Origin: Flavobacterium piscis
GTDB taxonomy: Bacteria; Bacteroidota; Bacteroidia; Flavobacteriales; Flavobacteriaceae
Length of the DNA: 64,000 nucleotides
Assembly: GCF_001686925.1 (NCBI RefSeq)
Contig: NZ_LVEN01000044.1
Span: forward strand, 1-64,000
Direction of reading: 5' to 3'
The notes below the pieces were generated by a model. The model saw only the letters and a program-made list of their open reading frames with translations. It had not been told where the DNA came from and searched no databases. Below, piece after piece: positions 5,774 through 50,259 of the stretch. How positions within the stretch are numbered: the first letter of the stretch is position 1; every line of letters starts with the position of its first letter. Made by a program: the position numbers and the translations under genes.

Positions 5774-7174
5774 TTAAATAATAATTCTAAGGATTTCTCC
5801 ATTTTTATTGATCATTTCCAGACGAACACTTTGTGCTTCATCTTTTCTGTTTAAAAGTTTAGCAACCGTCTCGATATTTGTTGCTTTTACATTATCGATA
5901 CTCAGGATAATATTACCTTGTAATTCGTTTTGATATTGCATTAAGTTTTCATTGTTGATGTTTCTGATTTTTACACCATAATCAATTCTGAATTTCTTTT
6001 TGTCGGCAGCATCAATGTTTTCTAATTCAATTCCTTTAAATTCGGTACTATAAAATTCGTTTTTGCTTAAAGTTACGGGAACTGTTTTGGTTTTTCCTTC
6101 TTTTATATAAGTTACTTTAACAACATCATTTGGTCGTTTTGTATTGATATATCCAGAAAGATCAGCATAAGTTGCAATATTTTGATCGTCAAGTTTTACA
6201 ATAATATCTCCTTTACCCAAACCGGCTTTTTCTGCACCTGAATTTTTAGAAACTTTACTGATGTAAAAACCCTGAGTTTCAGTAACACCTAATTCTTTAG
6301 AGGCAGTACTATTTAATTCGCCGCCTTCGACGCCTAGAATTCCTCTTTGAACATTTCCAAATTCCATAATATCTTCGATAATTTTTCGGGCGATATTCGA
6401 AGGAACAGCAAATGAATAACCTACATAAGAACCTGTCATAGATGAAATCATGGTATTAATACCAATTAATTCTCCTCTCGTGTTAACTAGTGCACCACCA
6501 CTATTACCTGGGTTTACGGCAGCATCAGTTTGAATAAAAGACTGAATTCCTTTAGTATCTAAATTTCTGGCTTTCGCCGAAACAATTCCGGCAGTTACGG
6601 TTGAAGTCAAGTTATACGGATTTCCAACTGCCAAAACCCATTCGCCAATTTTTACAGAATCTGAATTGGCAAAAGCGGTGTAAGGTAATTTTTCATCAGC
6701 ATCAATTTTTAGTAAAGCGATATCCATTTTAGAATCGGTACCAATTAGTTTTGCTTTATATGACTTTTTATTGTTTAAAGTAATTTCGATTTCTGTGGCA
6801 TCTTTGATAACGTGATTATTCGTGACAATATATCCGTCTTCAGAAATAATTACACCAGATCCCGTTCCTACTTGTTCTTGCTGCTGTTGGCCGCCGTAGC
6901 CATAGAAAAATTCTAACATAGGATTGCTAACAGTTCTTCGCGAAACATTTTTTACGTGAACAACTGTGTGAATTGTTTTATCTGCGGCGGCTGTAAAATC
7001 GACCGTTTCAGTAGATAAAGCAACATTTTTTCCAAACGAATTAGGGGCAAGAGTTACAACAGAATTTTGTCTTCCAAAAAAAGAATTGTTGCTTTCAAAT
7101 AATAACTTGTAAGCACCAAGTGTAGTAGCACCGCTAAGTAGTGAAACCAAAAATAAGGTTGAAAGTCTTTTCAT
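5774..7174 (-). CDS. Deg/HtrA-family periplasmic serine protease
   Basis: This 466-residue S1C protease starts with an N-terminal membrane or signal segment (about residues 5-25). The trypsin-like domain carries the triad His121 (VTNNHV), Asp151 (KMDIALLKI) and Ser225 (NPGNSGGAL). A first PDZ domain lies at about 280-370 (ILGVEGGEL, SGAEKAGLGKGDIIVKLD), with a shorter, less typical PDZ-like region at the C-terminus. It degrades or refolds misfolded envelope proteins. A Gln-rich stretch near residue 96 (GGQQQQEQ) sits in the loop before the active-site His. The gene appears monocistronic. Assignment to DegP, DegQ or DegS is not possible by eye. Confidence 0.92.
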   Translation of the reverse strand: MKRLSTLFLVSLLSGATTLGAYKLLFESNNSFFGRQNSVVTLAPNSFGKNVALSTETVDFTAAADKTIHTVVHVKNVSRRTVSNPMLEFFYGYGGQQQQEQVGTGSGVIISEDGYIVTNNHVIKDATEIEITLNNKKSYKAKLIGTDSKMDIALLKIDADEKLPYTAFANSDSVKIGEWVLAVGNPYNLTSTVTAGIVSAKARNLDTKGIQSFIQTDAAVNPGNSGGALVNTRGELIGINTMISSMTGSYVGYSFAVPSNIARKIIEDIMEFGNVQRGILGVEGGELNSTASKELGVTETQGFYISKVSKNSGAEKAGLGKGDIIVKLDDQNIATYADLSGYINTKRPNDVVKVTYIKEGKTKTVPVTLSKNEFYSTEFKGIELENIDAADKKKFRIDYGVKIRNINNENLMQYQNELQGNIILSIDNVKATNIETVAKLLNRKDEAQSVRLEMINKNGEILRIII

Positions 7175-48298: not shown

Positions 48299-48617
48299 TT
48301 AATCCTTCTTTTTTGATCTAATCACAATAGCTCCATGTATAGCTTTCTCTCCATAAAAAGCTGTTGCATCATTAGCTTTTAAAACCTGAATGCTTTCGAT
48401 ATCATTGGGGTTTAGTTTAGAAAATTGTTTGGCATCTATTACAATTCCGTCCAGAATTGTTAATGGCTCATTGAGAAGAGGCCGATGGTGCACAGATTAT
48501 TATTTTATTGGTTAAAATGGATTGCAATGTATCTTTTGTAGTTGTTTTTTCCTGTGCTTTAGCAACGAAAGATATAAGCATAGAAAGGGCTAATGAAATA
48601 AGTTTTACGTTTTTCAT
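48299..48617 (-). pseudogene. Frameshifted plug-domain protein gene
   Basis: Frame one starts ATG at 48617 with a signal peptide (MKNVKLISLALSMLISFVAKAQ), continues TKDTLQSILTNKIIICAPSASSQ and stops at 48468. The following codons, shifted by one base, read EPLTILDGIVIDAKQFSKLNPNDIESIQVLKANDATAFYGEKAIHGAIVI and end RSKKKD at 48299. This matches the plug domain of SusC/TonB receptors, but with no barrel. Removing one T in CAATGAGCC would join SSQ to EPLT. A real mutation or a sequencing error both fit. It is third in the sigma-factor locus. Confidence 0.75.
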
Positions 48618-48647
48618 GATGATAATTTGAAATAAATGATGCGTTTT

Positions 48648-48680
48648 ATCTTTGTCAAAGCGTTACACTTTGACAAAGAT
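48648..48680. repeat. 13-bp perfect hairpin between anti-sigma-like gene and plug pseudogene
   Basis: ATCTTTGTCAAAG and CTTTGACAAAGAT with a 7-base loop. On the plus strand it is followed by T residues; on the minus strand it is preceded by A residues, so it is not an obvious terminator for the minus-strand genes. Confidence 0.75.
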
Positions 48681-48697
48681 TTTTTAGATTTTTTCTT

Positions 48698-49639
48698 TTA
48701 GTTTTTAGGAGTTGGCTTACCTGTTTTGGTAGTGATAATTACCACTCCTTTTTTGCCTTTTTCGCCATATTTTGATGTGGCTTCAAGATCCTGAAGAACA
48801 GTTATGGTTTTTATTTCCTGTTTATTCAAAGGGGCATAAGGACTTGTGGGATTTTTGCCGAATAAATCATTTTCAGAATAATAAATTCCGTCAATAATAT
48901 ATAATGGAGCGTCCAGAACAACTAGTGAATCTACATTTTCAGGTTGCAAATTAGGAAGTTCGGCCTGCATCATTTTGTCTCTTTTTTGGTCGTCGCTATG
49001 TGCTATTGCATTTCCGTTGAGAATAATTAGCGGAGCACTTTTTTTAGCTACCTGAGTTTGTTTATCAGCAAATGCAACTTTAGCCGATTCTCTCTCTATA
49101 GTTCTGGAATAATCTATGTTTTGAGCCGCTTTATCTTTCAAATTATTATTATCTTCTTCTAGCGCATACTCAGCTTGTATAGGTGCATTGGCAGGTTCTT
49201 GACTAATAATAGCATCTGCGCTTCCTGCTCCCGTAGCCTCAGAAACGTAAGCGGTATTTTCTGCTACATTATTTTGAGTGGTAACTTGCTTATCTAAAAT
49301 TTTAAGCGCTTCCGGTTTTGGAATTAGTACTGAATCTGAAGCAACAACAGCTTTATTATTCTCTAAAATGTTTTGTTTTATCTTTTCTTTATTAACAACT
49401 GTAGAATTCTGAATTGTTGTTTTGTCTGATTTTATAAACTGAGAACCTATTGAAATTAATAATAAAAGAGAAGCTGCGATGGCAATTTTTTTCCATAACG
49501 AGATTGCTTTTTTATCTTCTTTTTTGTCGAGTTTTTCTTCCACGCGTGCCCAGACTTTGTCCATTCCGGGAAAATCTTTTTGTTCCGAGTTTTCTGCGGC
49601 TTCTTTAAATTTATTGAATATTTTATCTTGATTGTCCAT
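48698..49639 (-). CDS. Anti-sigma-like membrane protein with plug-like domain
   Basis: This 313-residue protein has a cytoplasmic N-terminus of about 45 residues (DKVWARVEEKLDKKEDKKAISLWKK), one transmembrane helix (IAIAASLLLLISIGSQF, about 48-65), and an Asn/Ala-rich periplasmic linker. Two stretches resembling the TonB-receptor plug follow: PLIILNGNAIA and PLYIIDGIYYSEND with NKQEIKTITVLQDLEATSKYGEKGKKGVVIITTK. It starts 2 bases after the ECF sigma factor stop, which points to an anti-sigma role; no canonical FecR/ZAS motif is seen, so the role is inferred. A similar plug-only gene follows. Confidence 0.72.
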   Translation of the reverse strand: MDNQDKIFNKFKEAAENSEQKDFPGMDKVWARVEEKLDKKEDKKAISLWKKIAIAASLLLLISIGSQFIKSDKTTIQNSTVVNKEKIKQNILENNKAVVASDSVLIPKPEALKILDKQVTTQNNVAENTAYVSEATGAGSADAIISQEPANAPIQAEYALEEDNNNLKDKAAQNIDYSRTIERESAKVAFADKQTQVAKKSAPLIILNGNAIAHSDDQKRDKMMQAELPNLQPENVDSLVVLDAPLYIIDGIYYSENDLFGKNPTSPYAPLNKQEIKTITVLQDLEATSKYGEKGKKGVVIITTKTGKPTPKN

Positions 49640-49641
49640 GA

Positions 49642-50178
49642 CTATTTTGCTTTTTGGTAATACAATTTATTTACTAAATCCTTTAGCTTCGTTTTGGCGG
49701 CATTCAATTGTGATTTTGATGTGCCTTCAGAAATGTTTAGCATTGCGGCAATTTCTTTGTGTCCAAAACCTTCAATTACAAAAAGGTTAAAAACAGTTTT
49801 GCAGCCGTCTGGAATATGGTTGAGTAAATTGAGTAAATCTTCTTCTTCTAATGTATTAATCTCATCCGTAAAAGGTTGCGAAAGCAATTTGACATCATCA
49901 AGATACATATTGAAATTGGTGTGCTTCTTGATCGTTGCCAAACAATGATTTACGGTTATTTTGCGCGCCCAGGCCTCAAAAGCCAGAACCTCTTTTAGCT
50001 GCTCCAGTTTTGTAAATATGGTATAGAAAGCGTCAGCCATAGCTTCTTCGATTTCTTCTTCCTTTTTGAGGTATCGTTTGCAGAGGCGATACAATTTTGG
50101 AGCCATATGCTCATAAACCTGACGCTGGGCATCACGGTTCATTTTTTTGCAGTTAGAAATTAGCGTTTCGTTTATCAC
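49642..50178 (-). CDS. ECF sigma factor (RpoE-like)
   Basis: This 178-residue sigma-70 family protein has region 2 (APKLYRLCKRYLKKEEEIEEAMADAFYTIFTKLEQLKEVLAFEAWARKITVNHCLATIKKH) and region 4 (LLNHIPDGCKTVFNLFVIEGFGHKEIAAMLNISEGTSKSQLNAAKTKLKDLV), but no region 3. The first codon is GTG at 50178; an ATG 36 bases downstream would remove part of region 2's first helix. The membrane protein encoded next, only 2 bases away, is the likely regulator. The upstream gap is repeat DNA without a clear TAnnTTTG box, so autoregulation by its own promoter type is possible. Confidence 0.92.
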   Translation of the reverse strand: MINETLISNCKKMNRDAQRQVYEHMAPKLYRLCKRYLKKEEEIEEAMADAFYTIFTKLEQLKEVLAFEAWARKITVNHCLATIKKHTNFNMYLDDVKLLSQPFTDEINTLEEEDLLNLLNHIPDGCKTVFNLFVIEGFGHKEIAAMLNISEGTSKSQLNAAKTKLKDLVNKLYYQKAK

Positions 50179-50259
50179 AATTGTTGTCTTTATACTAAAG
50201 AGGGTTGAAAAGATAAAAAGGTTGGAACGGAGGTTAAAAAAAGTTTTTTTAAAGGTTCA

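Follow-up and report, generated by a model that had tools for sequence, protein, structure and literature searches.

Dma anti-sigma factors of Bacteroides, which belong with the ECF21 Das sigma factors of the extracytoplasmic function (ECF) type, consist of an N-terminal anti-sigma domain, one membrane helix, a disordered tether and a C-terminal β-barrel (PMC13088901). In a 64,000-nucleotide stretch of the Flavobacterium piscis genome (contig NZ_LVEN01000044.1, positions 1 to 64,000; hereafter the window), we analyzed an operon in which an ECF sigma factor gene is followed, 2 nt after its stop codon, by a gene for a 313-residue protein of closely similar layout, also from a member of the Bacteroidota, with an N-terminal domain, one helix and a long disordered tether; it ends in half a plug where Dma ends in its own barrel, and the operon type comes with plug or vWA-YfbK partner genes. 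The plug is the gate inside TonB-dependent transporters, and the plug and CarboxypepD_reg modules of SusC/RagA transporters are of the same type as those of this operon, whose proteins, unlike the transporters, lack a barrel; a separate plug-less barrel occurs in nine genomes of the genus. The Fox and Fec cell-surface signaling systems likewise combine an ECF sigma factor, a membrane anti-sigma factor and parts of a TonB-dependent transporter in one pathway (PMC11637429). There, a whole transporter with an N-terminal signaling domain meets the anti-sigma factor, whereas nine open reading frames (ORFs) scanned around the window operon gave no Pfam match to a FecR or secretin/TonB N-terminal domain, and the plug sits on the anti-sigma candidate itself; a FecR protein is present elsewhere in the same genome (L032). 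The C-terminal two thirds of the usual partner in this operon type (vWF_A, VWA and YfbK_C domains) are of the vWA-YfbK type known from E. coli YfbK; the partner differs from that type by a CarboxypepD_reg and plug N-terminus and by its linkage to an ECF sigma factor. A YfbK-like vWA fold also occurs on TolA-like force transducers (PMC12204202).

We read the locus as a switch, made of an ECF sigma factor and its membrane anti-sigma factor, that would control a small set of envelope genes, with the terminal plug of the tether serving as a docking module; from sequence and homology, we regard this reading as evenly balanced between right and wrong. The parts are known in kind (ECF switches, Dma anti-sigma factors, plugs, vWA-YfbK and macroglobulin-like proteins), and their combination is not found in the literature searched: among the top matches listed, which included no bioRxiv and few subscription papers, there was no account of a plug on an anti-sigma factor or on a macroglobulin, or of ECF sigma factors accompanied by vWA-YfbK proteins.

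The sigma factor has sigma regions 2 and 4 only (Pfam Sigma70_r2, E 7.4e-10; Sigma70_r4_2, E 2.7e-12), as an earlier note on this DNA had proposed. That note also saw in the neighboring gene a one-helix membrane protein with a plug-like periplasmic part, and this description is upheld by profile, Protein Data Bank (PDB) and fold comparisons. Residues 244–308 match the SusC/RagA model TIGR04056 (NCBIfam, E 8.7e-14) over profile positions 153–207 of 981, so that only the latter half of the plug is covered; the similarity is far beyond what chance would give. All nine PDB sequence matches are SusC/RagA-type proteins, as are the first 15 Foldseek rows (best E only 0.024), and the first five VIA rows are TonB-dependent transporters (Z 3.9–4.1 over 55–82 residues); these fold scores are weak because the plug domain is small. 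The structural model, built from a 55-sequence alignment, has a predicted local distance difference test score (pLDDT) of ~90 at residues 241–308 and helices at residues 2–18 and 26–69. pLDDT falls below 50 at residues 73–104 and 124–199, and most of residues 73–199 is predicted to be disordered. A profile check suggested in the earlier note was thus borne out in part, with TIGR04056 matching the 313-residue protein and Pfam Plug matching the third ORF, but with no Pfam Plug match in the 313-residue protein. Its statement that neither plug protein has a barrel agrees with the Pfam and NCBIfam scans, which found none in the sigma factor, the anti-sigma candidate or the third ORF.

The plug is the conserved part of the periplasmic region. 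Most near-invariant periplasmic positions of the anti-sigma candidates fall within it (residues 242–305). All 80 named loci retain it, as do 65 of the 67 separate anti-sigma candidates of a second locus set. The tether spans 150–331 residues (median 181) in 131 separate proteins.

By layout and homology, the 313-residue protein is supported as a membrane anti-sigma factor. Its N-domain profile matches two Flavobacterium Dma-like proteins, L246 (E 2.8e-9) and L247 (E 4.5e-9). Each is encoded beside a sigma gene; in both proteins the N-domain is followed by a helix and a long tether, and the C-terminal part matches OMP_b-brl below the threshold. The sigma factors beside them match the window sigma at 7e-40 and 1e-40, respectively, and the sigma factor beside the FecR-type L248 at only 2.3e-10. 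In two more distant genomes (L229, L231), a CarboxypepD_reg-vWA-YfbK chain located next to a sigma gene starts with a zf-HC2 anti-sigma domain. The possibility that the neighbor is a conventional anti-sigma factor by structure, which would have refuted the earlier proposal, holds for the N-terminus, of conventional type, and fails for the periplasmic part, which is a plug; no anti-sigma fold stands among the VIA rows for the N-domain, whose model is poor (pLDDT ~57–73).

In a sample of the phylum, the N-domain was matched at E ≤1e-7 in 37 of 392 genomes. Ten loci outside the genus were read: the seven from one family (f5) have a plug, which sits in a separate anti-sigma factor in four and in a long ORF together with a different vWA-like domain in three, whereas the three from the family of F. 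piscis itself lack one, two of these being Dma-like. The three long frames (L358, L359, L362; 752–797 aa) are anti-sigma factors with a plug and a vWA-like domain unlike the YfbK type. Elsewhere in the class, in other families, a vWA-YfbK gene lies back to back with an ECF sigma gene and a gene for an anti-sigma-like protein of 436–462 aa that ends in CarboxypepD_reg and TonB_C domains (L226:4863-6251, L230:679-1989, L240:639-1997); judged by sequence, this arrangement is a second form of TonB parts on a sigma-linked membrane protein.

The neighborhood survey that the earlier note had called for shows the linkage of sigma and plug genes in 80 named loci and in 146 genus loci. Among 60 relatives, the 313-residue protein has matches at E 1e-15 in 13, the window genome included, all of the same genus. 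Flavobacterium supplies the 80 named loci, apart from a small number whose records carry the title Flavobacteriaceae or [Flexibacter]. All 80 have the sigma gene, and 79 have a plug-bearing gene downstream, the one without it (L225) being a short contig. This downstream gene encodes a ~700-residue protein in 63 loci (three broken), a small secreted plug-only protein in 13 and a 221-residue protein with a plug in three. The ~700-residue type, exemplified by L024, has a signal peptide followed by CarboxypepD_reg, Plug, vWF_A, VWA and YfbK_C domains in Pfam. In other Flavobacterium, a third gene with a plug, CarboxypepD_reg and a KPVIYLYP stretch is found at L048:3282-4406, L050, L059, L068, L071 and L072; the stretch has no Pfam match in L048, the protein scanned.

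With the N-domain profile, 146 strong loci (E up to 2.1e-18) were found among 299 genus genomes; 83 genomes with a weaker best match (E up to 0.001) were counted as lacking the anti-sigma candidate, and the four such loci that were read are Dma-like or FecR-type. A YfbK_C domain, sought with a family search that also matched the E. coli genome as a control, lies 1.8–3.2 kb further on the same strand in 84 of the 146 loci and in the same ORF in 21. The other 41, including the window, have none within 6.5 kb; at least four of them are cut by contig ends (L046, L047, L058, L074), and two of these four show the start of a vWA gene. In 34 of these 41 genomes there is no YfbK_C at all. The F. piscis genome lacks the usual third product, the CarboxypepD_reg-plug-vWA-YfbK protein. 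On a tree of 76 sigma proteins, fusion and separation account for nine changes by parsimony, at least three of them forced by well supported branches; the tree omits four contig-cut loci, the duplicates L012 and L017, the six earlier loci L021–L025 and L027, and also L084, the one locus in which no anti-sigma ORF was found, and the counts may shift slightly because L067 is labeled "none" despite a plug-bearing next gene (ORF overlap). Repeated fusion together with linkage argues that the anti-sigma factor and the vWA-YfbK protein work together. A motif inside the plug, P.SP[YF].PL, is present in 124 of 131 separate anti-sigma candidates and in none of 21 fused ones; this distribution is as expected of a contact made needless by fusion, although the motif may alternatively just mark one lineage.

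The third gene of the window is broken. Its second frame carries a half plug that passes the Pfam cut-off (Plug, E 9.9e-7, profile positions 56–107), and the signal peptide that the earlier note ascribed to the same protein lies in another frame of 49 codons, out of register with the plug; the plug is real, and the combination is true only of the intact copies in relatives. The start of the signal-peptide frame resembles an intact 106-aa gene in L045, and signal peptide and CAPS motif match the relatives' copies, the frame being lost directly after CAPS. An intact secreted plug protein is therefore rejected for the F. piscis genome, in which the frames are out of register through mutation or assembly error, and this copy of the operon seems to be decaying. 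In relatives, 40 intact sequences (34 distinct, 105–141 aa) were collected; CAPS precedes the half plug in 15 of the 34 distinct copies and C.PS in 20. The median dN/dS of the intact small plug genes is 0.38 (539 pairs at dS 0.1–1.6, duplicates included), which indicates constraint. From their sequences, secreted plug-only proteins are real operon genes in relatives and not in the window genome as assembled. That the third gene is a remnant of a vWA-YfbK gene is weakened as an explanation, since a similar small gene occurs in relatives without vWA-YfbK or after an intact vWA-YfbK gene, the latter in 11 of the 80 named loci (for example L151, L159, L162). In a class-level relative (L243), a plug protein of 176 aa whose start resembles a signal peptide (6306-6836) is encoded upstream of a sigma gene and a fused anti-sigma-plug-vWA-YfbK gene (L243:2936-5623); plug-only proteins thus occur outside the family.

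These partners could account for the plug without any barrel. It may be a periplasmic partner-binding domain only, the half plug pairing with some domain, be it the plug or a different one, of the vWA-YfbK protein or the small plug protein, which we consider possible, with the balance tilted against it. The adjacent or fused YfbK partners, the plug-bearing downstream gene in 79 of 80 loci and the absence of P.SP[YF].PL from fused proteins all speak for it; some vWA partners have no plug match, some loci have no plug partner, and pairing of this kind would by itself leave unexplained the plugs on the macroglobulins of the regulon described below.

The core AACC-N17-CTCT lies ~20 nt before the sigma start codon in 118 of 125 non-redundant upstream regions and is part of a longer, near-invariant element, TYCCAACCTTT-N14-CTCTWTA. 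Exact copies of this element number 143 in 150 genus genomes, and the reversed control 0. Of the 69 genomes in which the anti-sigma match is strong, 63 have such copies, compared with 2 of the other 81 (Fisher, 1.6e-32). As many as 141 of the 143 sites fall in the former; operon sites are found by construction, and this excess of 141 sites in 69 genomes over 2 in 81 means that the extra sites follow the sigma factor too. Only exact or near-exact sites were used, because a reversed control with two mismatches matches equally often. The F. piscis genome has five exact sites and none of the reversed control; they precede the operon, a CarboxypepD_reg-barrel unit, a CxxC protein, a VIT-type protein and a giant macroglobulin. 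A one-mismatch copy (G000:C44:272424-272455) has no ORF of ≥60 aa close behind it.

Site classification covered 60 distinct exact sites in chosen loci, not all 143. Of these, 17 precede the operon; among the other 43, 36 precede five recurrent gene types, four precede other genes and three none. The recurrent types are VIT-type proteins (10; Pfam VIT in L309), CxxC proteins (9), giant macroglobulin-like proteins (8), CarboxypepD_reg-barrel proteins (6) and a fifth type (3), which we take to be DUF4139-like; in these counts L298 and L331 were reassigned by hand from "other" to classes, and L258, L282 and L296 were grouped as one type. Three regulon types also adjoin vWA-YfbK genes in other families (BLAST: VIT-type in L245, 2.8e-59; CxxC in L227, 1.7e-26; DUF4139-like in L244, 1.7e-140), which supports a shared pathway. 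From this pattern, we infer that the sigma factor reads TYCCAACCTTT-N14-CTCTWTA and would activate the operon to which it belongs, together with a limited number of genes for envelope proteins. The element is unlike the one ECF-type motif, with a CGT box, of the F. psychrophilum promoter map, whose authors note that further ECF promoters may await discovery (PMC9723704).

Plugs recur among the predicted targets. In the F. piscis genome, the giant macroglobulin (Pfam MG2, A2M, bMG10) carries a half plug (independent E value (i-E) 1.9e-15; sub-threshold in Pfam), the VIT-type protein a plug unit (2.1e-9) and a 1511-residue macroglobulin a plug (i-E 1e-17), whose homologue L308 matches Pfam Plug at 1.6e-11 and TIGR04056 at 7e-36 (profile positions 65–205). 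Plug matches are limited to three of nine VIT-type proteins, and none was found in eight CxxC proteins or in five of eight giant macroglobulin reads, all of them partial. In nine of nine genomes, the gene for the 1511-residue type comes directly behind one for a protein of ~920 residues that combines CarboxypepD_reg with a SusC-like barrel; all six whole reads of this macroglobulin tested (five genomes) have a plug. Among six genomes without the barrel, five lack such a macroglobulin and one has only weaker matches. The barrel family has no plug in profile searches, on which this claim rests: the best plug i-E is 1.9 in eight proteins at full sensitivity, compared with ≤8.6e-20 in six SusC proteins of the F. 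piscis genome, and Pfam Plug is absent from the barrel protein at the L308 locus. TIGR04056 matches barrel proteins in two or three stretches, best in the C-terminal part. All nine barrel genomes are among the 146 with the anti-sigma candidate, and the promoter element before the barrel gene is exact in six, has one mismatch in two and four mismatches in one. In F. piscis, the barrel gene (L306:414-3232, C2) is interrupted, with CarboxypepD_reg and the barrel in two separate ORFs of different frames, and is thereby a second broken gene in the predicted regulon.

The plug of TonB receptors may be an exchangeable module in Bacteroidota, with a barrel in one protein and plugs on others (macroglobulin, vWA, VIT-type and small secreted proteins), the sigma factor reading a plug economy through the plug of its anti-sigma factor. 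In a strong form, the plug-bearing macroglobulin would sit in the plug-less SusC-like barrel, and anti-sigma factor and effectors would compete for the same kind of socket. We consider this somewhat unlikely.

A related explanation makes the anti-sigma candidate a Dma factor in two pieces: its plug would enter an outer-membrane barrel, the plug-less SusC-like one or else an unknown or temporarily emptied SusC-type barrel, so that it reaches both membranes with a borrowed barrel. The Dma-like layout and tether fit this, as do the constant pairing of barrel and macroglobulin, the plugs on all macroglobulins tested and the promoter element exact or nearly so before eight of the nine barrels; the structural match of the barrel to transporters starts at about residue 150, where transporter barrels begin, in a weak model (pLDDT only 52, predicted template modeling score 0.47). 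The barrel is nevertheless found in only 9 of the 146 anti-sigma genomes, the obvious occupant is the plug of the macroglobulin, half a plug may not fit, and the N-domain match is not Dma-specific; on balance this explanation is rather unlikely. As a general partner, the plug-less barrel is rejected, being present in 9 of 299 genus genomes only.

The docking-module reading takes in both of these explanations, partner binding alone and the two-piece Dma, as special cases, and the probabilities are not exclusive. Its logic of docking and proteolysis is borrowed from a related transporter signaling pathway, in which contact with the anti-sigma factor protects it from proteolysis (PMC11637429). 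In the resting cell, the plug would anchor the distal end of the tether to a partner able to bind plugs, whether an outer-membrane barrel, the vWA protein or a further plug protein. Docked in this way, the anti-sigma factor would monitor the opposite side of the periplasm, much as Dma possibly does through its own barrel. Envelope damage or attack would break the contact, or other plug proteins would compete for it, exposing the tether to proteolysis; the released sigma factor would then have plug-bearing proteins and their partners made until contact is restored. The earlier idea of the plug as a signal-receiving domain gains from the anti-sigma layout and homology, the conserved plug and the joint work suggested by linkage and fusion, with docking itself a prediction; its variant of pairing with a receptor elsewhere is suggested by the plug-less barrel behind the same predicted promoter in some genomes, among them that of F. 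piscis, where the barrel gene is broken.

Several observations weigh against the docking-module reading. The anti-sigma candidate carries only half a plug. No YfbK_C lies near 41 of the 146 loci, and 11 separate vWA-YfbK ORFs in 10 loci have no plug match (two of the 11 are contig-cut) versus 17 ORFs with one. The promoter core is missing from seven of the 125 upstream regions (L021, L066, L069, L071, L072, L075, L104), and at up to two mismatches the F. piscis genome has six pattern sites (five exact, one with one mismatch) versus six reversed ones. Neither the third gene nor the barrel gene is intact in that genome, and the barrel, as noted, is confined to few genomes. The N-domain profile matches the FecR-type proteins L249 (4.1e-11) and L248 (4.1e-9) about as well as the Dma-like ones; the N-domain match alone therefore does not single out Dma, and nearer kinship to Dma rests on layout and sigma factors.

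Alternatively, the plug may be an inert or purely structural leftover of a fused ancestor, with regulation by tether cleavage alone, for example by foreign or stress proteases. The long tether, mostly disordered in the window protein, would allow this, and the macroglobulin-like proteins of the regulon, a kind of protein that traps proteases, would fit a protease trigger; the concentration of near-invariant positions in the plug, its retention in 80 of 80 and 65 of 67 proteins and the constraint on the small plug genes make an inert plug improbable. That the 313-residue protein is no anti-sigma factor but another effector of the sigma operon is very improbable, for although Pfam assigns it no anti-sigma domain, the role is predicted from sequence and the N-domain profile matches, which end in the membrane helix, are possibly inflated, the gene starts 2 nt after the sigma gene, the protein has one helix and a probably cytoplasmic N-terminus resembling Dma-like and FecR-type N-domains, and a zf-HC2 domain precedes the same vWA-YfbK module in two distant genomes.

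Table 1 Coordinates of the operon and its parts in the window.
Feature	Position	Strand	Remarks
ECF sigma factor gene	49642..50178	-	178 aa, GTG start; Pfam Sigma70_r2 and Sigma70_r4_2
Anti-sigma candidate with cytoplasmic domain at the N-terminus, single helix, disordered tether and half plug at the C-terminus	48698..49639	-	313 aa
Membrane helix of anti-sigma candidate, ~residues 49–69	49433..49495	-	Hydrophobic stretch; model helix 26–69
Periplasmic tether of anti-sigma candidate, ~residues 73–240	48920..49423	-	Mostly predicted disordered
Extra half-repeat of plug unit (PLIILNG...VDSLVVL), ~residues 203–241	48917..49033	-	Sequence reading; alignment; short model strands 205–207 and 210–212
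C-terminal half plug with inserted motif NPTSPYAPL, ~residues 242–308	48716..48916	-	TIGR04056, TIGR04057; pLDDT ~90
Third gene (broken), first frame: signal peptide MKNVKLISLALSMLISFVAKAQ and CAPS motif	48468..48617	-	49 aa, then stop
Third gene (broken), second frame: half plug	48299..48493	-	64 aa; Pfam Plug 9.9e-7
Predicted promoter of the sigma factor's own type, TTCCAACCTTT-N14-CTCTTTA	50196..50227	-	Element upstream of sigma gene

Elsewhere in the F. piscis genome, an M56/BlaR1-type membrane protein (L030:5933-7945, C23) matches Peptidase_M56 at 7.7e-13 and Plug, in its tail, at 1.9e-13. By eye, the tail holds several plug-like repeats, and the adjoining small gene looks BlaI-like by eye only. 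It too is a membrane signaling protein with a plug tail, but this small neighbor is not a sigma factor gene.

Dma anti-sigma factors have been tied to vesiculation and polysaccharide use in Bacteroides (PMC13088901), and the present system, if the reading is true, would be their two-piece counterpart. It provides a concrete promoter and target list for an uncharacterized sigma factor, whose anti-sigma candidate was found in 146 of 299 sampled genomes of the genus, or roughly one in two. The pair of plug-less barrel and plug-bearing macroglobulin may deserve more novelty if the two fit together. With the plug as a separate part on an anti-sigma candidate and on its predicted targets, and a barrel without a plug, plugs acting in trans, as docking tags or removable gates, become directly testable.

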